From: Bacillota bacterium
Lineage (GTDB): Bacteria > Bacillota > TC1
Assembly: GCA_028683955.1 (NCBI GenBank)
Contig: JAQUGR010000001.1
Location: 310,001 to 374,000, forward strand
Reading direction: 5' to 3'
DNA: 64,000 bases
Part shown: in pieces, positions 11,624 through 54,771 of the stretch
How positions within the stretch are numbered: the stretch's first letter is position 1
Layout: every line of letters starts with the position of its first letter
Notes under the pieces: generated by a model
The model's input: the letters and a program-made list of their open reading frames with translations, nothing else
The model's database searches: none
What the model was told of the DNA's origin: nothing
Position numbers and translations under genes: made by a program

Positions 11624-12334
11624 ATGTTAAAGGATTTTATTATTCCAAAACATGTTGGGATAATTATGGATGGAAATGGTCGTTGGGCGAAAAAAAGAGG
11701 CTTATTACGTATTAATGGTCATAAAGAAGGCATGCTTGTTTTAAAAAAAACAGTTGAATCTTGTAAGAATTTGGGCGTAGACTATTTAACTGTCTATGCT
11801 TTTTCTACGGAAAATTGGAAAAGACCCAAATTAGAAGTTTCTTTCCTGCTAAATCTACTAAAATATTATATAAATTCTGAACTTAATTATTTAAAAGAAA
11901 ACAATGTATCTTTAAAATTTATAGGTTCAAGAATAGGATTAGACAAAAAAATCATTTCAATGATGGAAATGATAGAAACTGAAACAGGTAATGGTAAGGA
12001 TATGGTATTTTCCATTGCATTTAATTATGGTGGGAGAATGGAAATAACTGATGGTGTTAAAAACATTGCACAATTAGTGAAAAATGGCTCTTTACTTCCC
12101 GAAGATATTGATGAAGAACTAATCTCAAATAATTTATATACTAAGAATATGCCTGATCCAGACTTAATTATTAGAACTTCAGGGGAATTTAGAATAAGCA
12201 ATTTTTTGATATGGCAAGGTGCTTATAGTGAGTATTATATAACTGATACTTTATGGCCTGATTTTAATGAAGAAGAACTAATTAAAGCTTTTAAAGTATA
12301 TAATACAAGAAATAGAAGATTCGGAGGTGTTTAG
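11624..12334 (+). CDS. uppS: Undecaprenyl diphosphate synthase (cis-prenyltransferase)
   Basis: UppS adds isopentenyl units to farnesyl diphosphate to make the C55 carrier lipid for peptidoglycan. The 236-residue protein has the catalytic D16 in IIMDGNGRWAKKRG, the AFSTENWKRPK segment and, near the end, DLIIRTSGEFRISNFLIWQGAYSEYY. It is slightly shorter than the usual ~250. It sits beside cdsA and dxr/ispG, which share the isoprenoid and lipid theme and supply its substrates; its product feeds MraY, encoded 20 kb downstream. Confidence 0.96.
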   Translation: MLKDFIIPKHVGIIMDGNGRWAKKRGLLRINGHKEGMLVLKKTVESCKNLGVDYLTVYAFSTENWKRPKLEVSFLLNLLKYYINSELNYLKENNVSLKFIGSRIGLDKKIISMMEMIETETGNGKDMVFSIAFNYGGRMEITDGVKNIAQLVKNGSLLPEDIDEELISNNLYTKNMPDPDLIIRTSGEFRISNFLIWQGAYSEYYITDTLWPDFNEEELIKAFKVYNTRNRRFGGV

Positions 12335-12335
12335 A

Positions 12336-13130
12336 TTGACTAATGAATTTAAAACAAGGACTTTAACAGGTTTATTGCTTGTATTAGTAATTGGGACAGC
12401 AATCTTGTTGGGAGGACTATGGTTTTGGGCAACTAGTCTTATATTATCAACTATGTTTTTTAGAGAATATATAAATATCTATAAGTCGAAGAGAAGTCAT
12501 GGATTTTTCTTTAGTACAGGAATAATAGGGATTTTATATTATGTTGGTATATATTTAGATTATAGATTTACACTCCAAATTAGTTTATTGCTACTACTTA
12601 TTTATGGAGCTTTCCATGTTATAACTAAATATCCCAAGTATACATATAAAAATATTAAAACTACTATTTTTGGTTTTCTATATTGTTATATGTTTTTAAG
12701 TTCACTTTATTTACTAAGACGTGAAGAAGGCGGACTTCAATGGATATTATTTATACTACTTGTTAGCATACTAGGAGACGTAGGGGCATATCTTGTAGGC
12801 AAAAAGTTAGGTAAAAATAAAATAGCTCCAGTATTAAGTCCTGGTAAAACTATTGAAGGTCTTATAGGTGGTTTGATATTTGGTACCATTGGTGGCGTTT
12901 TATATGCAAATACTGTTTTAAACAAATCAATACCAATAAGCGCTTTGCTTTGTATAGCTATAGTTTTTATTGGATTAATGGGAGATCTATTTGAGTCACA
13001 TTTAAAAAGAGAAGTTAACATAAAGGATACAGGGACTTCATTACCAGGTCATGGAGGCTTTTTAGATAGGTTCGATGCAATAATCTTCATTTCTGGTTTT
13101 ATTTATATGTTATTAGAGGTGAAAAATTGA
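12336..13130 (+). CDS. cdsA: Phosphatidate cytidylyltransferase
   Basis: CdsA makes CDP-diacylglycerol from phosphatidate and CTP. The 264-residue integral membrane protein has about eight hydrophobic segments and the signature near the C-terminus: GKNKIAPVLSPGKTIEG...GDLFESHLKREVNIKDTG...PGHGGFLDRFDA. I choose the TTG at 12336 with GGAGG at 12323-12327; a GTG at 12327 overlaps that site and is unlikely. It ends overlapping dxr by 4 bases. Confidence 0.96.
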   Translation: MTNEFKTRTLTGLLLVLVIGTAILLGGLWFWATSLILSTMFFREYINIYKSKRSHGFFFSTGIIGILYYVGIYLDYRFTLQISLLLLLIYGAFHVITKYPKYTYKNIKTTIFGFLYCYMFLSSLYLLRREEGGLQWILFILLVSILGDVGAYLVGKKLGKNKIAPVLSPGKTIEGLIGGLIFGTIGGVLYANTVLNKSIPISALLCIAIVFIGLMGDLFESHLKREVNIKDTGTSLPGHGGFLDRFDAIIFISGFIYMLLEVKN

Positions 13131-14263
13131 AAAATATTGTTATTCTAGGTTCTACAGGTTCTATAGGAACTCAAAGTCTTGAAGTTATTGAAGAACAATC
13201 AGAAAAATTTAAAGCCTATGGTCTAGTTGGTGGGACAAATATTAATTTACTTATAACACAAGCAGAAAAATTCAAACCAACTTGGGTTGGCATTCAAGAC
13301 GAAAGAAAATATTCTGAATTAAAGGAACGGTTACCTAAAGATATAAAAGTTGTTGCTGGAGACAAAGGTATAGAAGAAATAATAGCCGATACAAATTATC
13401 AAGTGTTATTAGCCGCGATTAGTGGTATTGCAGGTTTAAAATCTACTATTAAAGGTATTGAAGCAGGAAAAGACATAGCATTAGCTAACAAGGAAACACT
13501 TGTGGCTGGTGGTGAATTAATAATGAACTTAGTGAGAGAAAAGGGCGTTAAACTTTTACCAGTAGATAGTGAGCATAGTGCTATCTTTCAAAGCATAAAT
13601 AACCCGGCTAGAAAAGTGAAAAAAATAATAATTACCGCATCCGGAGGACCTTTTAGAGATTATGATGAAGAAGGGTTAAAGAATGTTACGGTTAATGATG
13701 CACTTAAACATCCGAATTGGTCAATGGGTAAAAAAATTACTATTGATTCTGCTACACTTGCAAATAAAGCATTAGAAGTTATAGAAGCACATTATTTATT
13801 TGATTGTCCATATGAAAATATTGATGTATTAATACATAAGGAAAGCATTATACATTCTATGGTAGAATTTATAGATACATCAATAATTGCACAATTAGGT
13901 TATCCTAGTATGAAATTACCAATACAATATGCTTTAACACATCCAGAAAGCCTTTCAGTCAATTGGCCATCTTTAGACTTAGCTTCTATTGGCACATTAA
14001 ATTTCAGTAAACCTAAAGAATATTTTAAAGCATTAAGCTTAGGAATAGAGTCAGGTAAAGCTGGAGGGAGTGCTCCTGTGATATTTAACGGAGCTAATGA
14101 ATTTGCAGTAGATTATTTTATTAAAGGTAAAATATCATTTTTGCAAATTGCTGAAATGATAGATAAAGCTTTAAATCACATAGAAAAAATTGCTATTAAG
14201 AGTTTTGATGATATTGTCTTAGTAGATAAATTAACTAGAGAATATTTAGAAAGGAGTTTTTAA
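13127..14263 (+). CDS. dxr: 1-deoxy-D-xylulose 5-phosphate reductoisomerase
   Basis: Dxr catalyses the committed MEP-pathway step, DXP to 2-C-methylerythritol 4-phosphate, with NADPH and a divalent metal. The 378-residue protein starts with the NADPH-binding ILGSTGSIGTQSLEVI, has LANKETLVAGG, the metal-binding LPVDSEHSAIFQ and the flexible-loop region with LKHPNWSMGKKITIDSATLANK. The start is TTG at 13127, overlapping the cdsA stop by four bases, with GAGGTG upstream. The presence of dxr and ispG shows the non-mevalonate route is used. Confidence 0.97.
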   Translation: MKNIVILGSTGSIGTQSLEVIEEQSEKFKAYGLVGGTNINLLITQAEKFKPTWVGIQDERKYSELKERLPKDIKVVAGDKGIEEIIADTNYQVLLAAISGIAGLKSTIKGIEAGKDIALANKETLVAGGELIMNLVREKGVKLLPVDSEHSAIFQSINNPARKVKKIIITASGGPFRDYDEEGLKNVTVNDALKHPNWSMGKKITIDSATLANKALEVIEAHYLFDCPYENIDVLIHKESIIHSMVEFIDTSIIAQLGYPSMKLPIQYALTHPESLSVNWPSLDLASIGTLNFSKPKEYFKALSLGIESGKAGGSAPVIFNGANEFAVDYFIKGKISFLQIAEMIDKALNHIEKIAIKSFDDIVLVDKLTREYLERSF

Positions 14264-15267
14264 TGGGTATATTTTCAATAGTATTGGGAATTTTAGCAAT
14301 AGGTATAATAGCTCTTATACATGAAGTCGGGCATTATTTTTTTGCTAGAAGAGCTGGTATTAAAGTACTTGAATTATCTATTGGTGCTGGACCAAAGATT
14401 GTTTCATTCGTAAAAAATGAAACTCAATATACTATAAGGCCTATTCCTTTTCTTGCATATGTAAGATTAGAAGAAGATGGTCCCGGTGGTCTTTCAGCTG
14501 CATCTTCATTTCAAAAGTTTTTTCTATATATTGGAGGAGTTTTTTTTAATATAATGACAGCATTGTTAATTTTGATTTTAATCGGAGTATTTTCTGGCGT
14601 ATATACAGATAAGGTTATAGTTGGTGAATTAATACAAGATAAACCGGCAATTAATATTCTGCAAAAAAATGATCAGATAATTGCAATAAATAATGCAAAA
14701 ATAGATGGGTTTGAATCATTGGAAACACAATTAGAAAAATATGGAAATTCTGAAATTGAATTGACAGTTTTAAGAAATAATAATAAAGAAAATTTCAATA
14801 TTGTACCAGTTTTAGATAAAGAAAGTGATAGGTTTGTGCTTGGATTTTTCTTTGCTAAAGAAAAACTAAACGTTTTAAGCAGTATAACTAATTCAGTTAA
14901 TATGATTTGGGATTATGTGTCACAAACTTTTATTATGTTAGGAAATATAGTAACAGGGCATGCAAATCCAAGTGATAATTTAGTAGGAATAGTAGGGATA
15001 GTTGCTATTTCCAGTGATTTCACTTCTAGATTTTCAGATTATATGGTTTTTATAGCAATTATAAGTATTGGGATGGCAGTAGTGAATATTTTACCTATTC
15101 CAGCATTAGATGGAGGCAAAATTGTTTTACTAGGTGTTGAAAAATTAATTGGACATAAAGTTAATAAGGAAGTTGAAGCTAAACTAACAGTTGTCGGTTT
15201 TGCTCTATTAATATTACTAATGGTATTTACAACTATAAATGATTTAGTAAAGTTGTTTGGAGGTTAG
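14263..15267 (+). CDS. rseP: Site-2 intramembrane metalloprotease (RseP/RasP-like)
   Basis: This 334-residue membrane protease cuts substrates within the bilayer, typically anti-sigma factors and signal-peptide remnants. The zinc motif HEVGH is at residues 20-24 in the first membrane segment, a single PDZ domain follows at about 110-185 (IQDKPAINILQKNDQIIAINN), and the second zinc motif ALDGG has D283. It is shorter than the ~420-residue B. subtilis RasP. It overlaps the dxr stop by one base (TAATG). Its usual place between dxr and ispG is conserved. Confidence 0.94.
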   Translation: MGIFSIVLGILAIGIIALIHEVGHYFFARRAGIKVLELSIGAGPKIVSFVKNETQYTIRPIPFLAYVRLEEDGPGGLSAASSFQKFFLYIGGVFFNIMTALLILILIGVFSGVYTDKVIVGELIQDKPAINILQKNDQIIAINNAKIDGFESLETQLEKYGNSEIELTVLRNNNKENFNIVPVLDKESDRFVLGFFFAKEKLNVLSSITNSVNMIWDYVSQTFIMLGNIVTGHANPSDNLVGIVGIVAISSDFTSRFSDYMVFIAIISIGMAVVNILPIPALDGGKIVLLGVEKLIGHKVNKEVEAKLTVVGFALLILLMVFTTINDLVKLFGG

Positions 15268-15268
15268 T

Positions 15269-16363
15269 ATGCGAAGAAAAACAAGTACTATATATGTGCG
15301 AGATGTTCCTATAGGTAGCGAACATCCAATTGTTGTGCAGTCTATGTGCAATACTGATACTAGAGATGTTAATAGCACCTTAAATCAAATTAATTCACTT
15401 GCTAGTGAAGGTTGTAAAATAGTTAGACTTGCTATAGTGGATGAAATTGCAGTTAAAGCTCTAGGTGAAATAATGAAAAAAAGTGTAATTCCTGTTATTG
15501 CTGATATACACTTTGACTATAAGCTAGCACTAGGTTCGATTAAAGCTGGTGTAGATGGGTTAAGACTTAATCCTGGAAATATTGGAAGTGAAGAAAAAGT
15601 AATAAAAGTGGTAGAAGCTGCCAGAGATAGAAAAATACCAATTAGAATTGGAGTTAATGGTGGATCTTTAGATAAAAACCTATTAGAAAAATATGGTGGA
15701 CTCTGTCCAGAAGCTATGGTTGAAAGTGCTTTAGAAAATATCTATCTATTAGAAAAGTTAAATTATCCATGGATGAAAGTATCATTAAAATCATCTAATG
15801 TTCCTATGATGTTAAGAGCATATGAACAATTAGCCATAAAAGTAGATTATCCATTTCATATAGGTGTTACAGAGGCGGGAACAGAAAAATCTGGCTTGAT
15901 AAAATCTGCAGTAGGTATAGGTGCTTTATTAGATAAGGGTATTGGTGATACTTTAAGAGTATCTTTAACAGCTGATCCAATAAAGGAAATATATGCTGGT
16001 TATGAAATATTAAAAGTTTTAGGTTTATCAAAAAAAGGGGCTACATTAATTTCTTGCCCTACATGTGGGAGAACAGAAATTAATTTAATTAATTTAGCTC
16101 AAAGAGTTGAAGAATTAGTTGAAAAAATAGATATACCTATTACAGTGGCAGTTATGGGTTGTCCAGTAAATGGACCTGGTGAAGCCAAGGAGGCTGACAT
16201 TGGAATAGCTGGTGGTTTGAAATTAGGTCTAATATTTAAAAAAGGTAAAATAATTGCTAAAGTTAAAGAAGAAGACTTATATCAAGAATTTGTAAAAGAA
16301 CTGGAAAAAACAGTACAAGAATATAAGGAGGAAAATAATGAGGGTTTCACAACTTTTCAATAA
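15269..16363 (+). CDS. ispG: 4-hydroxy-3-methylbut-2-enyl diphosphate synthase
   Basis: IspG reduces ME-cPP to HMBPP, the penultimate MEP-pathway step, using a [4Fe-4S] cluster. The 364-residue protein has the TIM-barrel pattern (VQSMCNTDTRD, DIHFDYKLAL, GLRLNPGNIG) and the C-terminal cluster cysteines in SCPTCGRTEI and MGCPVNGPGEA. I start it at ATG 15269 with GGAGG at 15259-15263 rather than at the in-frame TTG 15257. Its last 26 bases overlap proS. Its cluster would be supplied by the iscSU genes at 58-59.5 kb. Confidence 0.97.
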   Translation: MRRKTSTIYVRDVPIGSEHPIVVQSMCNTDTRDVNSTLNQINSLASEGCKIVRLAIVDEIAVKALGEIMKKSVIPVIADIHFDYKLALGSIKAGVDGLRLNPGNIGSEEKVIKVVEAARDRKIPIRIGVNGGSLDKNLLEKYGGLCPEAMVESALENIYLLEKLNYPWMKVSLKSSNVPMMLRAYEQLAIKVDYPFHIGVTEAGTEKSGLIKSAVGIGALLDKGIGDTLRVSLTADPIKEIYAGYEILKVLGLSKKGATLISCPTCGRTEINLINLAQRVEELVEKIDIPITVAVMGCPVNGPGEAKEADIGIAGGLKLGLIFKKGKIIAKVKEEDLYQEFVKELEKTVQEYKEENNEGFTTFQ

Positions 16364-18050
16364 AACACTTAAGGAAGATCCTGTTGAAGCAGAAATTATT
16401 AGTCATTCTCTTTTAATTAGAAGTGGAATGATAAGAAAGTTAGCACCAGGTGTTTTTTCATACTTACCATTAGGATGGAGAGTTTTAAATAAAATAAGCA
16501 ATATTATTAGAGAAGAAATGAATAGAGCAGGATGTCAAGAACTAATGATGCCAATAATACAACCAAAAGAATTATGGGAACAAAGTGGTAGATGGTTTGT
16601 ATATGGTAAAGAACTTATTAGATTAAAAGATAGGCATGATAGAGAATATTGCTTAAGCCCTACACATGAAGAAGTAATAACCACATTAGTTAAAAATGAA
16701 ATAAAATCATATAAAGATTTACCTTTAAATTTATATCAAATTCAAAATAAGTACAGAGATGAAGTTAGACCTAGATTTGGTTTGATTAGAAGTAGAGAGT
16801 TTTTAATGAAAGATGGATATTCTTTTAACAGAAATGAAGAATCTTTAAATAAAACTTATGAAGAAATGTATGATGCTTACAGTAGAGTATTTACAAGATG
16901 TGGTTTGAATTTTAGAGCTGTAGAAGCTGATTCAGGCGCTATAGGTGGTTCGTCTAGTCATGAATTTATGGTGTTAGCTGATACTGGAGAAGCTTCCTTA
17001 ACCTATTGTAAGAGTTGCGACTATGCTGCTAATATGGAAATGGCTACTCATGAAAAAAGACATTATGATAATGGAATAGAAAACAAACTTGAAAAAATTA
17101 TAACACCTGATAAAAAATCAATAGAAGAGGTTTCTGAGTTTTTAAATATAAGTCCAGATTTAATGTTAAAAACCTTAGTGTATAAAGCAATATATGAAAA
17201 CAATGAAAAACTTATATGTATAGTTGTTAGAGGTAATCGTGAAGTAAATGAAATAAAATTAAAAAATGAACTTAAAGCAATTGATATATCTCTCGCAGAT
17301 AACGAGGAAGTTTTTAAAGCTACAAAAACTCCTATTGGTTTTATTGGACCTATAGGTTTGGAAAATGTAGAGATATTTGTTGATGAAGAAGTAATGGAAG
17401 TAAATAATGGAGCTACTGGGGCTTTAATAGAAGACTATCACTATATTGGTGTTAACCCTAAAAGAGATTTTCCTAGAGATTGTATTATAGGGGATTTTCA
17501 TAATGTAGATGAATTTGATTTATGTCCTAAATGTTCTGGAACACTTAATTTTAAAAGAGGGACAGAAGTAGGACAAGTATTTAAGTTAGGGAAAAAATAT
17601 TCAGAAAAACTAGATTGTAAATTTCTCGATGAAAAAGGAGAAAATCAACATGTTACTATGGGTTGTTATGGTATAGGGGTTGGCCGAACTATGGCAGCAA
17701 GTGTTGAACAAAATAATGATGAAAGAGGAATTATTTGGCCTAAAGCTATAGCTCCTTATCATGTTATTATTATTCCTGTAAACGTTAAAAATCAAGATAT
17801 TATTAATATAGCAGAAGAGTTATATAAAAATCTTTTAAAAGAAGATATTGAAGTTATATTAGATGATACTGATGAAAGGGCTGGAGTTAAATTTGCTAAT
17901 GCAGATTTAATTGGATATCCTATTAAAATTGTTATAGGTTCCAAAACCCTTGAAAATAAAACTGTAGATTTCAAAATAAGAGCAACTGGAGAAGAAGTGA
18001 TTGTTCCATTAAAAGAAGCTTTAGGCAAGATCAAGAGAATATTACTGTAG
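16338..18050 (+). CDS. proS: Prolyl-tRNA synthetase (bacterial type, with INS domain)
   Basis: ProS charges tRNA-Pro. The 570-residue class II synthetase has motif 1 around GWRVLNKISNIIREEMNRAG, motif 2 in NKYRDEVRPRFGLIRSREFLMKDGYSF, and motif 3 in GCYGIGVGRTMAA, followed by the anticodon-binding domain. About 180 residues between motifs 2 and 3 form the INS/YbaK-like editing domain, so it is the bacterial form. The ATG at 16338 has AAGGAGG just upstream, within the end of ispG. No T-box leader is present, because it is internal to the operon. Confidence 0.97.
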   Translation: MRVSQLFNKTLKEDPVEAEIISHSLLIRSGMIRKLAPGVFSYLPLGWRVLNKISNIIREEMNRAGCQELMMPIIQPKELWEQSGRWFVYGKELIRLKDRHDREYCLSPTHEEVITTLVKNEIKSYKDLPLNLYQIQNKYRDEVRPRFGLIRSREFLMKDGYSFNRNEESLNKTYEEMYDAYSRVFTRCGLNFRAVEADSGAIGGSSSHEFMVLADTGEASLTYCKSCDYAANMEMATHEKRHYDNGIENKLEKIITPDKKSIEEVSEFLNISPDLMLKTLVYKAIYENNEKLICIVVRGNREVNEIKLKNELKAIDISLADNEEVFKATKTPIGFIGPIGLENVEIFVDEEVMEVNNGATGALIEDYHYIGVNPKRDFPRDCIIGDFHNVDEFDLCPKCSGTLNFKRGTEVGQVFKLGKKYSEKLDCKFLDEKGENQHVTMGCYGIGVGRTMAASVEQNNDERGIIWPKAIAPYHVIIIPVNVKNQDIINIAEELYKNLLKEDIEVILDDTDERAGVKFANADLIGYPIKIVIGSKTLENKTVDFKIRATGEEVIVPLKEALGKIKRILL

Positions 18051-18057
18051 GTGAAAA

Positions 18058-21000
18058 ATGAAAGATAAATGGTTCGATTTTATTAATCGATTAGATCTTG
18101 AAGAACATATAAAAAATAAACTTATAGCAGGAACTAATATAGAATTAAAAGCTAATAAAGAGAAAAGAAAACTTGATATCTCATTAGATTTAAAAGAATT
18201 TATTAGTCTTGAAGATATAATTGGGGCTGAAAAAACAATTGGCTTATTCTTTCAGCCCTACAATGTGAGTGTTATGCCTTTTTATATAGAAAATAGTAAT
18301 ATAGATCTTGTGGGCATAACAAAATATTTGAACTATAGAATAACAAATGAATTACCTTTTTTTCCATTAGGGTCATTAAACTTTTGTAAAGATAATAATA
18401 CTATAGAAGTAGTCTTGCCATCTGATTTTCATTCTGAAATATATAGTAAAAAAGGTATACATAAGCAAATTGAGAAATTACTAAATAAAACAATTTGTAA
18501 TAAAGATTTAATTAAAATTAAAGCAATAAAAAGTGATAACTACTCATCAAGATTAAAAGATATAAAGAATAGAACTCAAGATGCAATTGACGAAAACAAA
18601 AATACAATTATTAATAAACCTGTAAAAGTTAAAAAAATAAGTGCTGAAAATGCAAATAAAGTAAATGAAGAGGGGATTATACTAGGAACTTTAATTGCAG
18701 ATGAAATAATCCCGGCTGAAGCCAAGGCTGAAACAATAAAAAATATTGCAATGTTTGGTAAAATTCAAGATTTAGATATAAGAAACATTAATAAAGATAA
18801 ATTTCTCATTTCCTTTAATCTAATATGGAAAAAATCTGGTATACCATGTAAATTATTTATCAAAAAAAATAGCAAACAACCTGTTTTAAAAAATGGGTTA
18901 ATTGTATCTATACGAGGTAAACTAGAATATGATAATTATAAACATGATTTTGTTTTAGGTATAAAAGATATAAATGAATATAAAATAACTGCCCCAAGAG
19001 ATAATGCAGATACTAAACGTGTTGAATTACATTTACATACTAAAATGAGCTTTCTAGATGCAAATATTGACTTGAAGGATTTATTTAAAAGAATGGAAGA
19101 TATGGGTCATGATACAGTAGCCATAACTGATCATGGAGTAGTTCAAACATTCCCAGAAGCTTATGAACTAACAAAAGATAGGAATATTAAAGTCATCTAT
19201 GGAGTTGAAGGATATTTATTTGATGATATTAAAAGTGATAATTTAAAAGGTAAAACCTACCATGTAATCATACTAGTAGAAAATCAAATTGGTCTAAAAA
19301 ATTTATATACATTAATTAGTGAATCTCATCTTAATTATTTTTATAGAAAACCAAGAATACCAAAAAGTTTACTAATAAAACATAGAGAAGGTTTGATCAT
19401 AGGAAGTGCCTGTGAAGCTGGTGAAGTTTTTAAAGGTATTGTAAATAAACTTGATGAAGAAAATATGCAGGATATAGTTGAATTTTATGATTACTTGGAA
19501 ATACAACCAATATCAAATAATGAATATATGGTTAGAAATGGCCTTGTTGAAACTAATTCAGATTTAATTAATTTTAATAAAGATGTTATAAAATGGGGTG
19601 AAAGATCCAATAAACCAGTAGTAGCTACAGGAGACGTGCATTTTCTTGATAAAGAAGACAGCATTTATAGGGCTATCTTAATGAAAAGCAAAGGTTTTTC
19701 TGATGTTATTCAACCTGATCTTTATTATAGAAGTACTGAAGAAATGTTATTAGAATTTGATTATTTAAGCAAGGAAAAGGCATATGAAGTGGTTGTTAAA
19801 AATCCGAGGATTATTGCTAACAGAGTTGGGAAGATTAGACCTGTACCTGTTGGATTATTTACACCTAAAATTGAAGGTGCAGAGGAACAAGTTAAAGAGA
19901 TAACTTATAGGACAGCGCATGAAATTTATGGGGAAAAGTTACCTGATATAGTTGAAGCAAGAATTGAAAAGGAATTAAACTCTATAATTAGTAATGGTTT
20001 TGCTGTACTGTATTTAATTGCGCATAAATTAGTTAAAAAATCAAATGAAGATGGTTATGTTGTTGGATCTAGAGGATCTGTTGGATCATCATTTGTAGCA
20101 ACATTAATGGGAATTACTGAAGTTAACCCATTAAGTCCTCATTATATTTGTCCTTCTTGCTGTCATAGTGAATTTGTTTTTGATGAATATGATTGCGGAA
20201 TTGAACTACCGCCTAAAAAATGTCCTAATTGTAATGCAGCTATGAGAAAAGATGGGTTTAACATTCCCTTTGAAACTTTCCTGGGTATTGATGGAGATAA
20301 AATTCCAGATATAGATTTAAATTTCTCTGGTGAGTATCAAGGTAAGATTCATAAATATACTGAAGAACTCTTTGGTAAAGGTAATGTATTCAAAGCTGGT
20401 ACAATAAGTACAGTAGCTGAGAAAACTGCAATTGGCTATGTTAAAAAATATTATGAAGAAGAAAATATTGGTAATCCAAGAGATATTGAATTAATTTCCT
20501 TGGCATCTGGTTGTGTAGGTGTTAAGAAAACTACAGGGCAACATCCTGGAGGTCTAGTTATAGTACCTGAAAATATTGATATACATGACTTCACTCCTGT
20601 ACAAAGACCGGCAGATGATATAAACTCTGACATCACTACTACACATTTTGATTATCATTCTATAGATAGTTGTTTAGTAAAATTGGATTTATTAGGACAT
20701 GATGATCCTACTATGATTAAATATTTAGAAGAAATGACAGGCATAAAAGCTGAAGAAATACCACTTGATGATGAAGATACAATTTCTTTATTTAGATCAA
20801 ACAAGAAATTAGAACTTAGAGAAGATTTTGTGGAAACAGGGAGTTTAGGTTTACCAGAGTTTGGAACAGGTTTTGTTAGAAAAATGTTAAAAGATACTAA
20901 ACCTAAGGTTTTTTCTGATTTAATAAGAATTAGTGGATTCTCGCATGGTACTGATGTTTGGCTAAACAATGCTAAAGATTTAATATTAAGTGGAAAAGTT

Positions 21001-21720
21001 AAACTTAAGGAAGCTATTTCTACAAGAGACGATATTATGATATATTTATTAGGTAAGGGTTTGAAAGACAAAGTAGCATTCAAAATAATGGAGGATGTTA
21101 GAAAAGGTAGAAAAGTAAAACCTGAATATGAAGAACAAATGATTGAAAATAATGTTCCTCAATGGTATATAGATTCATGTAATACAATTTCATATATGTT
21201 TCCAAAAGCTCATGCTACTGCATATGTTATTATGGCCTTTCGTCTAGGTTATTTTAAAATTAACTTTAAAGAGGCATTCTATGCAAGTTATTTTAGTGTT
21301 AGAGGAGATGCTTTTGATTTAAATTTATTTAAAGACCAAGAAACGGTAAAAAGTAACCTTGAAAGATTGAAGCTTGAAACCTTTTTAAATGCTAGAGAAA
21401 AAGAATTGAAAAACATTTTAGAAATTGGATATGAAATGTATTTGAGAGATGTTGTTTTTACTCCAATAAGTCTTTATAAATCAAAAGCTAAAAGATTTAT
21501 TGTTTCACCTGAAGGCTTAATACCACCATTTTCAACAATACCAGGTTTGGGAGATAAAGTTGGTGATAATATTATAAGAGAAAGGTTGATAGGACCTTTC
21601 TTATCAATAGAAGAATTACAAAGAAGATGCAAAATTAATAACACATTAATAGAAGAAATGAAGAAGTTGGGAATTTTAGACGGATTAGTACAAAGTGCAC
21701 AACTATCTTTATTTGATTAA
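18058..21720 (+). CDS. polC: DNA polymerase III PolC, lacking the 3'-5' exonuclease domain
   Basis: PolC is the replicative polymerase of low-GC Gram-positives. Visible domains: N-terminal region (1-~200), OB fold (~225-310), PHP domain (321-~530), a zinc-binding region (C698, C701, C713, C722, C725), the catalytic aspartates D751 and D753 in KIPDIDLNFSGEY, nucleotide-binding GSRGSVGSS, and a C-terminal helix-hairpin-helix region. It is 1220 residues, against ~1437 in B. subtilis. The difference lies inside the PHP domain: after VIYGVEGYLFDD (379-390) the chain passes through ~9 residues straight to YHVIILVENQIGLKNLY (401-417), where the DnaQ-like exonuclease normally sits. No ExoI 'DVETTG' motif occurs anywhere. 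PHP ligand candidates H325, H327, D358, H359, E384, H402, C452, D526 and H528 are retained. The gene begins 7 bases after proS. Confidence 0.95.
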   Translation: MKDKWFDFINRLDLEEHIKNKLIAGTNIELKANKEKRKLDISLDLKEFISLEDIIGAEKTIGLFFQPYNVSVMPFYIENSNIDLVGITKYLNYRITNELPFFPLGSLNFCKDNNTIEVVLPSDFHSEIYSKKGIHKQIEKLLNKTICNKDLIKIKAIKSDNYSSRLKDIKNRTQDAIDENKNTIINKPVKVKKISAENANKVNEEGIILGTLIADEIIPAEAKAETIKNIAMFGKIQDLDIRNINKDKFLISFNLIWKKSGIPCKLFIKKNSKQPVLKNGLIVSIRGKLEYDNYKHDFVLGIKDINEYKITAPRDNADTKRVELHLHTKMSFLDANIDLKDLFKRMEDMGHDTVAITDHGVVQTFPEAYELTKDRNIKVIYGVEGYLFDDIKSDNLKGKTYHVIILVENQIGLKNLYTLISESHLNYFYRKPRIPKSLLIKHREGLIIGSACEAGEVFKGIVNKLDEENMQDIVEFYDYLEIQPISNNEYMVRNGLVETNSDLINFNKDVIKWGERSNKPVVATGDVHFLDKEDSIYRAILMKSKGFSDVIQPDLYYRSTEEMLLEFDYLSKEKAYEVVVKNPRIIANRVGKIRPVPVGLFTPKIEGAEEQVKEITYRTAHEIYGEKLPDIVEARIEKELNSIISNGFAVLYLIAHKLVKKSNEDGYVVGSRGSVGSSFVATLMGITEVNPLSPHYICPSCCHSEFVFDEYDCGIELPPKKCPNCNAAMRKDGFNIPFETFLGIDGDKIPDIDLNFSGEYQGKIHKYTEELFGKGNVFKAGTISTVAEKTAIGYVKKYYEEENIGNPRDIELISLASGCVGVKKTTGQHPGGLVIVPENIDIHDFTPVQRPADDINSDITTTHFDYHSIDSCLVKLDLLGHDDPTMIKYLEEMTGIKAEEIPLDDEDTISLFRSNKKLELREDFVETGSLGLPEFGTGFVRKMLKDTKPKVFSDLIRISGFSHGTDVWLNNAKDLILSGKVKLKEAISTRDDIMIYLLGKGLKDKVAFKIMEDVRKGRKVKPEYEEQMIENNVPQWYIDSCNTISYMFPKAHATAYVIMAFRLGYFKINFKEAFYASYFSVRGDAFDLNLFKDQETVKSNLERLKLETFLNAREKELKNILEIGYEMYLRDVVFTPISLYKSKAKRFIVSPEGLIPPFSTIPGLGDKVGDNIIRERLIGPFLSIEELQRRCKINNTLIEEMKKLGILDGLVQSAQLSLFD

Positions 21721-21733
21721 AAGGAGGTAAAAT

Positions 21734-22156
21734 TTGAGAAACGTAGCTTTTTTCTTGACACCAAAACACGAGTTAGCATATTTAAATAAGGATTCTACTA
21801 TACGTCAGGCTATTGAAAAATTTGAAAACCATGGACCATTTTTAGAAATTATAGTTTTAGATAATGAAGGAAGATTTGTTGGCATAATTAGTGCTAAAGA
21901 TGTACTTTTAGCTTTTAAAAAAATATCTGGATTAAATTTCGAAAATTCTCATGTACATAAGATTAAAGATTTACATTATGACAAAAATGTTATAACTGTA
22001 AATATCGATACTAGTTCAGATGTATTAGTAGAAATAAGTAAGGTGCAAAATATAATTCCTGTTATAGATGGGGAAAATAGATTTATCGGTATAGTAAGAA
22101 GAGCTAATCTATTATTCTATTATTACCAGAAAGCGGGTATAAACGAAGATGAGTAG
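21734..22156 (+). CDS. CBS-domain pair protein
   Basis: A 140-residue protein made of two CBS motifs and little else (FVGIISAKDVLLAF near 50-65; FIGIVRRANLLFYY near 115-130). CBS pairs bind adenosine nucleotides such as AMP, ATP or c-di-AMP and act as energy sensors; the ligand cannot be told here. The start is TTG at 21734 with AAGGAGGT directly after the polC stop. It overlaps the malic enzyme gene by 8 bases, which hints that it may sense or regulate metabolism rather than replication (inference). Confidence 0.85.
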   Translation: MRNVAFFLTPKHELAYLNKDSTIRQAIEKFENHGPFLEIIVLDNEGRFVGIISAKDVLLAFKKISGLNFENSHVHKIKDLHYDKNVITVNIDTSSDVLVEISKVQNIIPVIDGENRFIGIVRRANLLFYYYQKAGINEDE

Positions 22157-50017: not shown

Positions 50018-52444
50018 TTGGATAAAAAAGTTGAGTTATTGGCACCTGCAGGTGGACTAGAACAATTAAAAGCAGCAATTTATAATGGAGCCGATGCGAT
50101 ATATTTTGGCGGAGAAAAATTTTCTGCCAGAGCAAATGCTACTAATTTTAATAAAAATGAAATAATTATAGCAAGAAGGTTAACAAAAAAACACAATATT
50201 AAATTATATTGTGCAATAAATACAGTAATTTTTAATAATGAACTTGAAGAAGTTATAAATTATATAGCTTTTTTATCAAAAGTAGGTATTGATGCATTAA
50301 TTGTACAAGACATAGGGTTAATAACATTAGTAAAAGAATATTTTCCTGATATGGAAATACATAGTAGTACACAATTATCAATTCAAAATACCTATGGTTT
50401 AGAATTTTTAAAAACCTTAGGAGTAAAACGAGCTGTATTGCCAAGAGAATCATCTTTAAAAGACATTTTAAAAATGAAAAATTCTGGTATTGAACTTGAA
50501 GCCTTTGTTCATGGAGCAATTTGTATATGCTTTTCTGGACAGTGTTTAATGAGCAGTATGATAGGTGGCAGAAGTGGAAATAGAGGTGCTTGTGCACAAC
50601 CATGTAGATTAAAATATAATCTTATAGACTACAAATCAAAAGAAGTAATATGCGAAAATGCATCATATTTAAGTCCAAAGGACATGATGCTAATAAATTC
50701 AGTGGATAAGTTAATTGAAGCTGGTATTAAATCTTTTAAAATTGAAGGAAGAATGAAAACACCTGAATATGTAGCTACTATTATTAAATTTTATAGAATG
50801 GCTATTGATAAAGCTTTATCAGGAGAAGAATTAAACTTAACCCAGGAAGAAAACAATGAAATTGCTCAAGTATTTAGTAGAGATTTTACAGACTCATATT
50901 TATATGGGAAAAGTGGCAAGGATATGATGAACGTCAATAAACCTAATAATCGTGGTACTTTAGCCGGTAGAGTGCAAAATTTTAAAGATGGGAAAGTATC
51001 AGTGTTACTTAAAACACCGATACAACTTGGGGATAAATTATCTTTTTGGACTACTGTAGAAGGTAGAGTGAATATTAGTGTTGACAGAATTAATAAAGAG
51101 GGTGTATTTGTTGACTCAGCGGAAGCTAAAGACATTGTTACTTTAGATATTCCAAAAAGAGTTAATAGAGATGATAGAATATTTAAAACAGAATCAGCTT
51201 ATAATAAAGCAATTATTGAAAAACAAATAAATAGTTTTAATATTGATGAAAAAATATCTTTGGACATTGAAATGTATGGACAAGTTGGTGAACCACTAAC
51301 AATGGAATTTATTGATGAAGATGGTTTTAAAAGCAAAGTCGTTTCAGAAATAATATTAGAAGAAGCATTAAAACATCCATTAAATGAGGAGTCTTTAAGA
51401 ACTCAAATTCGTTTAGGTGATACTAGTTATATCTTACGTGATTTAAAACTTAATGTAGGTCATATTATGGTGCCTAAAAGCGTTCTTAATAATATGAGGA
51501 GAGATGGTATTAAAAGTATTATTGAAAAAAGAGAAGAACATTTTAATTTTAAACATATTGAAATCAGATCTAATATAAATGAAAAAAATTTAATTGCTAA
51601 AAGGCCTAAAATAGGCGTAATTGTAGAAAGTATAGATAAAATAAAAGAACTGTTAGTAAGAGATGTTGATTATATATATTATCCTCTTATAAATTTTAAA
51701 AATATTGGAAGCAGTGCAATAGATTTTTTGAATTATATAAAATTATTAAGTGATGATCAAAGAAAGATTATAGTCTTAGATTTACCACGATTTATTAGAG
51801 AAGATGATATGGCTTTTATATTAAGTCAAATAGATATGTTTAAACCATATATATATAGCTTTAGAGCAAATACCGTAGATCACATTATAATGTTGAAAAG
51901 TCTTGGAATCCATAACATTCATGGGAATTCAAGCCTGAATATAGTAAATAGTGTTGCTTATAATTTTTACAAAAATATTTTAAGTTTAACAGAAATAGAA
52001 TTATCAAAAGAATTAAACATTGCTCAACTATATGACTTGAATAATAGTGCACAATTAACAATTTATGGCATAACAGAATTGATGATAATGGAACATTGTT
52101 TGATTGGATCAGAAATTGGACCTAAAAAGTGCAAAGAAAGAATATATGCACTTAAAGATAGAATTGATGTAGAATTTCCAATTTTAGTTGATGAAATTGG
52201 TAAAAATCACATAATTAATAGCAGGAAACTTATGATAATTGATGAATTAATAATTTTAATGGAAACTGGGTACCATAATTTTATACTTAATTTTATTATG
52301 ACCGACATTGATATACTGAGAGAAATTATTGATATATATATTGCAGTAATAAGAAACCATAAGAATATAACAAAAGCAAAAGATGAAATTTTTTGCTTAG
52401 AGTCTAATTTAACCAAAGGGCATTTTAATAGAGGTATAATTTAA
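50018..52444 (+). CDS. U32-family peptidase with DUF3656
   Basis: This 808-residue protein starts with the U32 hallmark VELLAPAGGLEQLKAAIYNGADAIYFGG. It has the family cysteines in HGAICICFSGQCLMS and GNRGACAQPCRLKY, and EGRMKTPEYVA. The large C-terminal part is the DUF3656 region of long U32 proteins. Some U32 members (RlhA, UbiU/V, TrhP) are RNA- or cofactor-hydroxylating proteins with Fe-S clusters rather than proteases, and the Cys-rich motifs here fit that. I use TTG 50018 with GGAGG at 50005-50009; an ATG at 50003 contains that site. It overlaps mutS2 by one base. Confidence 0.9.
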   Translation: MDKKVELLAPAGGLEQLKAAIYNGADAIYFGGEKFSARANATNFNKNEIIIARRLTKKHNIKLYCAINTVIFNNELEEVINYIAFLSKVGIDALIVQDIGLITLVKEYFPDMEIHSSTQLSIQNTYGLEFLKTLGVKRAVLPRESSLKDILKMKNSGIELEAFVHGAICICFSGQCLMSSMIGGRSGNRGACAQPCRLKYNLIDYKSKEVICENASYLSPKDMMLINSVDKLIEAGIKSFKIEGRMKTPEYVATIIKFYRMAIDKALSGEELNLTQEENNEIAQVFSRDFTDSYLYGKSGKDMMNVNKPNNRGTLAGRVQNFKDGKVSVLLKTPIQLGDKLSFWTTVEGRVNISVDRINKEGVFVDSAEAKDIVTLDIPKRVNRDDRIFKTESAYNKAIIEKQINSFNIDEKISLDIEMYGQVGEPLTMEFIDEDGFKSKVVSEIILEEALKHPLNEESLRTQIRLGDTSYILRDLKLNVGHIMVPKSVLNNMRRDGIKSIIEKREEHFNFKHIEIRSNINEKNLIAKRPKIGVIVESIDKIKELLVRDVDYIYYPLINFKNIGSSAIDFLNYIKLLSDDQRKIIVLDLPRFIREDDMAFILSQIDMFKPYIYSFRANTVDHIIMLKSLGIHNIHGNSSLNIVNSVAYNFYKNILSLTEIELSKELNIAQLYDLNNSAQLTIYGITELMIMEHCLIGSEIGPKKCKERIYALKDRIDVEFPILVDEIGKNHIINSRKLMIIDELIILMETGYHNFILNFIMTDIDILREIIDIYIAVIRNHKNITKAKDEIFCLESNLTKGHFNRGII

Positions 52445-54771
52445 TGGTTCAAGAAAAAACAATTAAAAAATTAGAATTAGATAATATAAGGGAACTTTGT
52501 ATAAGATTTGCTTCACATCCAATAAGCAAGAAACTGGTTAAAGAGCAGAAGTTGGCAAGAAATTTTAATGAAGCTGAAGATCGTCTATATGAAACAAATT
52601 CGGCATTACAACTCATTAGAACAAAACCTGATCTGCCAAGCGGATCCTTACCTGACATGGAAGATACAATAGAAAAACTATCAGGGGAATTTCAACTTAA
52701 TCCACACGATTTATTTTATTTACTTGTATTATTGCGTTCTTCTAAAGATATATTGAATTATTTTAAAGGTGGTTTAGAAAATCCAGTATTTTCAAGATTG
52801 ATTAGTAATCTTTCTGATTTGAAATATTTAAGAGACAGTATTAATAAGATTGTTGATGAGAATTCATTTATTAAAGATGATGCCAGTGAAGAGTTGTTAA
52901 GTATCAGAAGGAAACTAAAAAGCAAAAACAGTGAAGTGAAAAGACAACTTGAGCATATGTTAAAAAGGACATCTTTAGACAAGTATTTACAAGAAAAAGT
53001 AGTGGTTAGAAGAGGTGAACGATACTGTCTAAGTGTTAAAAAAGAGTTCGCTTATAAAATCCCAGGAGTTATTGAAGATACCTCTGCAAGTGGAAATACT
53101 GTATTTATAGAACCAATTGAAATTGGAAATATAAGAGGGGAATTAAATATTCTCAAGAAAGCTGAAAATGATGAAATTGATATAATATTAAGAAAAATAT
53201 CAGCAACTCTATTTGTAGAAAAAGATAATATTTTATTGATTTATAATACATTAGGTTTTTATAATTTTTATATAGCAAAAGGATTGTTTACTAGAAGTAT
53301 TAAGGGAATTATTCCTGAAATAAACGATCAAGGGAATATTAAATTACATAATGCCAGACATCCCTTATTATTTGGTAAAGTTGTAGCTAATGATTTGTTT
53401 TTAGGTGAAGGTTATAATAACTTAATAATAAGTGGGCCTAATACAGGTGGAAAAACAGTCTTGTTGAAAATGGTAGGTCTTTTTGCACTTATGATTTCTT
53501 TAGGATATGGTATACCAGCCAATGAAGGCTCTAAAATGTCATACTTTAATAAAGTTTTGGTCGATATTGGTGATGAACAAAGTATTGAAAATTCATTGTC
53601 AACATTTTCTGGGCATATATATAATATAAAAGAAATGCTGGATTTAGCAGACTCTAATACCTTACTTCTTTTTGATGAACTTGGAAATGGCACTGATCCT
53701 AAAGAGGGCAGTAGTTTAGCTATGTCAATTTTAATTTATTTAAATAATAAAGGTTGTCATAGTATTACTACAACTCATTATGGCGAATTGAAGGTTTTTG
53801 CATATAATACTCCAGGATTTTCTAATGCTTCAATGGCTTTTGATGTAAGGACATTAGAACCAACCTACCAACTGATTATTGGTACTCCAGGTTCAAGTTT
53901 AGGTCTTGAAGTAGCTAAAAGATGTGGTCTCAAAGAAGAAATAATTATAACAGCAAAATCATTAATAGATAGTAGCGAATTGGAAACTAGTCAATTAATT
54001 CAATCCTTAGAAGAAGAAAGAAGTTTGTTAAATGAAAAACTTAAAAGTATAGATTTAGAAAAAAATATAATTGAAAATTTAAAGCAAAAATTAATAAATG
54101 AACAAGAAGCATTAAAGAATAAAGATCAAAAGATTATTAATAAGGATTTACAAAAGTCACAGGATATTTTAACTAATATAAAACTTGAAAGTGAAAATAT
54201 AATTAAAGAACTAAAAGAATTGAAATTAAATAATCCTGATTTAGCTAATAAAGCGAGAAATAAAATTAAAAGATTAGAAGATAGCCTATCTGAGGTGAAA
54301 ATTAATAGTCAAAAAAGTGGAACTAAATCTTTAAAGAAAGGTCAATCAGTAAAAGTTGTCTCTCTTGATAAAGAAGGGGAAGTAGTGGAAGCTGATGATA
54401 ACAAAAGATTTGCTGTAATAAAAATTGGTATTATGAAAATCAATTTACCATATGATGACTTAATAATAGAGGTAATGGATAAAGTAGAAGAAAATTATAG
54501 AATTATCAAAGAAGTAAATATAGGCAATATACCTATGGAAATTGATGTTAGAGGTCTAAATGTTGACGAATGTATTTATAAATTAGAAAAATATTTAGAC
54601 CAGGCGGTCTTAAGCAAGTATCCATTTATAAGAATAATACATGGCATGGGTACAGGTGCTTTAAGAAAAGGAATTTGGGAATACTTGCAAAGGTTATCAT
54701 ATATAAAAAGCTTTCGTTATGGAGAAGCCAATGAAGGCAGTATAGGTGCAACTATAGTTTATTTAAAATAG
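52444..54771 (+). CDS. mutS2: MutS2 family ATPase/Smr nuclease
   Basis: MutS2 is not a mismatch-repair MutS; it acts on recombination intermediates and, in B. subtilis, on stalled or collided ribosomes. The 775-residue protein lacks MutS N-terminal domains I and II, has the clamp/lever region, the ATPase with Walker A GPNTGGKT (331-338) and Walker B LLLFDELGNGTDP, a KOW-like segment, and a C-terminal Smr domain from about 700 (IDVRGLNVDECIYKLEKYLD...IHGMGTGALR). A GAGGT site precedes the ATG by ~8 bases. Confidence 0.96.
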   Translation: MVQEKTIKKLELDNIRELCIRFASHPISKKLVKEQKLARNFNEAEDRLYETNSALQLIRTKPDLPSGSLPDMEDTIEKLSGEFQLNPHDLFYLLVLLRSSKDILNYFKGGLENPVFSRLISNLSDLKYLRDSINKIVDENSFIKDDASEELLSIRRKLKSKNSEVKRQLEHMLKRTSLDKYLQEKVVVRRGERYCLSVKKEFAYKIPGVIEDTSASGNTVFIEPIEIGNIRGELNILKKAENDEIDIILRKISATLFVEKDNILLIYNTLGFYNFYIAKGLFTRSIKGIIPEINDQGNIKLHNARHPLLFGKVVANDLFLGEGYNNLIISGPNTGGKTVLLKMVGLFALMISLGYGIPANEGSKMSYFNKVLVDIGDEQSIENSLSTFSGHIYNIKEMLDLADSNTLLLFDELGNGTDPKEGSSLAMSILIYLNNKGCHSITTTHYGELKVFAYNTPGFSNASMAFDVRTLEPTYQLIIGTPGSSLGLEVAKRCGLKEEIIITAKSLIDSSELETSQLIQSLEEERSLLNEKLKSIDLEKNIIENLKQKLINEQEALKNKDQKIINKDLQKSQDILTNIKLESENIIKELKELKLNNPDLANKARNKIKRLEDSLSEVKINSQKSGTKSLKKGQSVKVVSLDKEGEVVEADDNKRFAVIKIGIMKINLPYDDLIIEVMDKVEENYRIIKEVNIGNIPMEIDVRGLNVDECIYKLEKYLDQAVLSKYPFIRIIHGMGTGALRKGIWEYLQRLSYIKSFRYGEANEGSIGATIVYLK

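Follow-up and report, generated by a model that had tools for sequence, protein, structure and literature searches.

The PolC encoded in the 64,000-nucleotide stretch of DNA analyzed here (the window) lacks the DnaQ-like exonuclease (Exo) domain, and proofreading probably falls to the metal-dependent PHP exonuclease within PolC itself, as in M. tuberculosis DnaE1; we put the probability of this reading at roughly three in four. The enzyme is predicted to work as a normal replicase and to belong to the Exo-less kind of PolC, a kind in all likelihood inherited by the whole order.

Anatomy of the Exo-less PolC

The polC gene, its parts and the gene directly upstream have the following window positions.

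16338-18050, + strand: proS, directly upstream of polC (NCBIfam name; gene context, outside the enzyme)
18058-21720, + strand: PolC open reading frame, 1220 aa, far above cut-off for both NCBIfam NF001688 (1436.8 bits, cut-off 873) and TIGR01405 (1315.2 bits, cut-off 1043.45)
18673-19011, + strand: region before PHP with an OB domain, approximately residues 206-318, matching the OB domain of 3f2b in an alignment that begins at residue 224, and beta-rich at the start of the structure model
19024-19488, + strand: PHP domain according to Pfam, residues 323-477 (PF02811, 115.8 bits)
19210-19260, + strand: 17-residue loop, residues 385-401, GYLFDDIKSDNLKGKTY, at the site of the DnaQ-like exonuclease in Exo+ PolCs
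20308-20688, + strand: polymerase active-site aspartates D751, D753 and D877, invariant in 108/108 aligned PolCs
21700-21714, + strand: C-terminal beta-clamp-binding motif QLSLF, residues 1215-1219, located in the PolC sequence

Besides PHP (323-477), Pfam recognized the pol III alpha core, fingers and HhH domains, and PolC rows split from DnaE rows at support 100 in the trees. The last two PHP ligands, D526 and H528, lie beyond the Pfam boundary at residue 477. QLxLF is the consensus form of the clamp motif in 38 Exo-less PolCs. The genes uppS-cdsA-dxr-rseP-ispG-proS run ahead of polC, with proS last (NCBIfam names, window 11624-18047), a neighborhood known for Firmicutes PolC. Directly 3′ of polC, a small CBS-domain protein (window 21734-22156) shows a weak likeness (49 bits, cut-off 125) to CbpB, a c-di-AMP-binding protein, and a malic enzyme gene comes next.

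PHP ligands E384 and H402 are separated only by the 17 residues of the loop, compared with inserts of 210 to 217 residues in 40 Exo+ PolCs. Aligned with full-length E. faecium PolC (9qpc), the query jumps from residue 390 (target 431) to residue 397 (target 636), leaving about 200 residues missing. The alignment with 3f2b, a G. kaustophilus PolC crystallized after removal of its Exo domain (PMC12592400), is unbroken over residues 224 to 1219. RNase_T gave no Pfam match anywhere in PolC, even at E ≤ 1, ruling out relocation of Exo elsewhere in the protein. These results confirm the original prediction that the domain is absent, and the residue numbers given with it (H325/H327, E384 and H402) are correct. 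A loss in frame, at a domain boundary and with an intact polymerase core had also been proposed and is likewise supported. Absence of Exo is a feature of an Exo-less subset and does not exclude membership in PolC (PMC3919608).

A structure model of residues 206 to 1220 (mean pLDDT, 90.3; pTM, 0.81) superposes on 3f2b, a complex of the Exo-removed PolC with DNA and dGTP (TM 0.92/0.94), and matches 9qpc with a TM of 0.93 by query length. In the model, strands of the PHP domain extend to either side of the 17-residue loop.

It is scarcely conceivable that the absence of Exo stems from misassembly or from a second polC copy in decay, and nothing found speaks for either. A check of relatives for the same deletion found the join in congeners G001, G003 and G004 at 78 to 87% identity, in another genus of the family (G005), in 4/4 genomes of a sister family of the same order (f2) and in the separately assembled MAG contig JAGXHX010000062.1. 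Since relatives and an independent assembly share the join, the assembly-error reading was rejected. A check for an intact second polC found none: the genome holds a single PolC match besides DnaE1, and the open frame and invariant active-site residues of that PolC argue against decay.

Distribution and history of the Exo-less form

A recent deletion confined to this one genome is not supported: the state is common to the whole order sampled, widespread in the phylum and was published in 2013. Timinskas et al. reported PolCs without Exo from Clostridia and Negativicutes (PMC3919608); 6% of PolCs were then without Exo, all from these two groups bar one extra Thermotogae copy, and the share was 16% in PolC + DnaE1 systems (PMC3919608). 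The kind is already known, and this PolC is a new member.

Of 398 genomes drawn evenly from the phylum, each at least 90% complete, 282 have PolC. By our own tally, at least 118 of these carry an Exo-less PolC (115 by frame length and unbroken alignment, plus G038, G044 and G048), and at least 127 carry an Exo+ PolC, found by a search for the PolC Exo domain within a PolC-length frame and including three fragments. The other 37 PolC genomes may belong to either group, so the Exo-less share is given as 42 to 55%. The Exo-less form is common to about half of the sampled related species. The class holding G030, which looks like Bacilli, has PolC in 71/71 genomes, 70 as full-length frames of 1427 to 1518 aa (Exo+ in size) and 1 as a fragment. 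One genome of family f30 (G334) has a pair of genes for Exo-less PolC (L087 and L088), neither of which has lost a PHP ligand, and a second genome of that family (G297) has two PolC matches as well.

In trees built from PHP and the polymerase core, minus the insert, and rooted with a DnaE outgroup on a long branch, Exo-less and Exo+ rows interleave, with a minimum of 8 changes, at least 5 of them forced by well-supported branches. The AU test rejected a single clade both for Exo-less PolCs (P = 0.0003), and with it a single origin of that form, and for Exo+ PolCs (P = 3e-6). A single gain of Exo would call for no fewer than 11 losses on the PolC tree. Repeated loss of Exo would be the simplest reading of these trees, over transfer of polC between lineages or an Exo-less ancestor. 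The Exo-domain tree had poor support on vertical descent versus transfer.

PHP site and proofreading

All nine PHP metal ligands are present in this PolC (H325, H327, D334, H359, E384, H402, C452, D526 and H528), matching the nine-residue PHP exonuclease motif HHDHEH[C/H]DH of a 2026 survey in which proofreaders of the PHP and DnaQ kinds are sorted by motif (PMC12926913). Among 108 aligned PolCs, HHDHEHCDH is kept in 68/68 Exo-less sequences. The 40 Exo+ PolCs comprise 24 with all nine ligands, 15 with Asn at ligand 8 and 1 with a degraded site; the PHP site is thus damaged in 16/40, most commonly by D-to-N change at the eighth ligand. The DEDDh residues are intact in all 40 Exo domains, including the 16 that accompany a damaged PHP site, and no PolC among the 108 lacks both PHP site and Exo. 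The association between Exo absence and an intact PHP site is driven largely by the Bacilli clade, and its P value (Fisher's exact test, P = 1e-8) overstates independence and is to be discounted: the rows are not independent, Asn at ligand 8 being confined to Bacilli-like ones. The single degraded site (L118, genome G414) is altered at three ligands (HHDHTEADH) next to an intact Exo.

The loop at the Exo site measures 12 to 29 residues in Exo-less PolCs, and DnaE-type polymerases have a loop of 9 to 29 residues where G. kaustophilus PolC has its DEDD exonuclease (PMC5636811). In M. tuberculosis DnaE1, D226N, at the aspartate corresponding to PHP ligand 8, abolishes exonuclease activity (PMC5636811). 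The literature searched reports PHP exonuclease activity for no PolC; that of G. kaustophilus, in which one PHP ligand is mutated, is reported inactive (PMC5636811).

By analogy with the DnaE1 enzymes of M. tuberculosis and T. aquaticus, on which the route is modeled, a mismatched primer end would move to the PHP site of PolC, where a three-metal centre would cut out the wrong nucleotide in the 3′-5′ direction. The activity, the identity of the metals and the path of the primer end would all be carried over from DnaE1 (PMC5636811). The PolC family would then have two alternative proofreaders, PHP and Exo; the lineage of this PolC keeps PHP, and many Bacilli keep Exo with PHP damaged. Against PHP proofreading, the domain also has a structural role, and stability alone could explain why its ligands are retained; in addition, two stand-alone DEDDh exonucleases of the genome could help.

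These two proteins, both above cut-off for RNase_T, came from the proposed genome search for a stand-alone dnaQ; near relatives with the same PolC type have none.

C15:100128: 178-aa DEDDh protein, RNase_T above cut-off
C7:43931: 318-aa exonuclease-BRCT-like protein, RNase_T above cut-off

The exonuclease of the 318-aa stand-alone protein (L001:1441-2397) resembles PolC Exo (NF001688, 164 bits). Proofreading in trans by a DnaQ-like exonuclease, most likely one of these two, is improbable. Both have DEDDh residues readable in their sequences, and the 178-aa protein is kept in two congeners at 70 to 72% identity, but neither gene adjoins replication genes, and genomes G005 to G008, where PolC is also Exo-less, have neither a close homolog nor any RNase_T match. 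This absence from G005 to G008 also rejects a single stand-alone exonuclease as a clade-wide substitute for Exo.

A search for RNase_T (PF00929), one DEDD family among others such as the Pol I exonuclease domain, found no match in ten genomes with an Exo-less PolC and a completeness of 90% or more (G005-G008, G021, G023, G024, G029, G033 and G044). One of the ten belongs to the same family (G005), and another, a single contig, to the same order (G006). The PHP sites of both PolC and DnaE1 are intact in all ten, and PHP is therefore the only recognized proofreading exonuclease there. Anatomy, conservation and the lack of alternatives in relatives are direct observations. Proteomes average more than three DnaQ homologs (PMC12926913), compared with which ten near-complete genomes without any PF00929 domain are unusual.

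The second replicase of the genome, a DnaE of 1146 aa at C15:153683, is assigned to DnaE1 because its set of nine PHP ligands is complete, as is typical of DnaE1 and not of DnaE3. Loss of Exo would matter little if this DnaE1, with its intact nine-ligand PHP site, were the main replicase and PolC a minor one. The idea was raised for PolC + DnaE1 systems by Timinskas et al. (PMC3919608), and DnaE occurs without PolC in several genomes of the phylum. It is nevertheless unlikely here: the polymerase site, clamp motif and PHP ligands of PolC are strictly conserved, and PolC inhibitors kill C. difficile, a PolC + DnaE1 organism (PMC12592400). A mutator organism whose replication goes without proofreading is very hard to credit. 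The main DEDD proofreader of the textbook PolC is indeed absent, but an Exo-less architecture is common to a large fraction of the phylum, and nothing indicates a raised mutation rate, since PolC and DnaE1 each have an intact PHP site and MutS (964 bits, C15:214579) is present with MutL after it (L146). A 775-aa ORF elsewhere in the window (52444-54771), with a MutS-like match at C15:363308-363985 (102 bits, below the mutS1 cut-off), is probably MutS2.

The original prediction had left a choice between reliance on another proofreader and a raised mutation rate. The former is supported in part, the other proofreader most likely being PHP (9/9 ligands), which had not been considered; the latter found no support. 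More broadly, and with a slight leaning only, we suggest that PHP and the DnaQ-like Exo may be interchangeable in Bacillota PolC: Exo would have been lost many times, PHP would be the only recognized replisome proofreader in several lineages, the Exo-less form would roughly equal the textbook form in frequency, and no PolC would be without both.

Relation to known systems

If PHP is the sole proofreader in lineages without an RNase_T exonuclease, these lineages would lend themselves, as natural systems, to tests of whether PHP proofreads in PolC and to the question of what makes Exo loss recur. The Exo insert is also unsafe as a mark of PolC: a 2025 survey accepted as PolC only sequences with RNase_T inside PHP (PMC11963600), a rule that would drop the Exo-less form.

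Like the Exo-less PolCs of Timinskas et al., this enzyme has OB, PHP, polymerase core and HhH without an Exo insertion and is paired with DnaE1; it shows no structural difference from that set and is another member of it. What differs is the share, 6% of PolCs in 2013 versus 42 to 55% of PolC-bearing genomes in the present phylum sample. The canonical Bacilli PolCs (E. faecium 9qpc and G. kaustophilus 3f2b) are orthologous polymerases with the same fold and about 50% identity over the core. In contrast with this PolC, the natural Bacilli enzymes have Exo inserted between ligands 5 and 6 of PHP, that of 3f2b having been removed artificially, and many have Asn at PHP ligand 8, where this PolC has Asp. 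M. tuberculosis DnaE1 (PMC5636811; 5lew), for which PHP exonuclease activity is proven and by analogy with which it is inferred for this PolC, differs in belonging to another polymerase group and in having no N-terminal OB domain, but its nine PHP ligands follow one another as in this PolC, and a short loop likewise occupies the site that can hold Exo in PolC.
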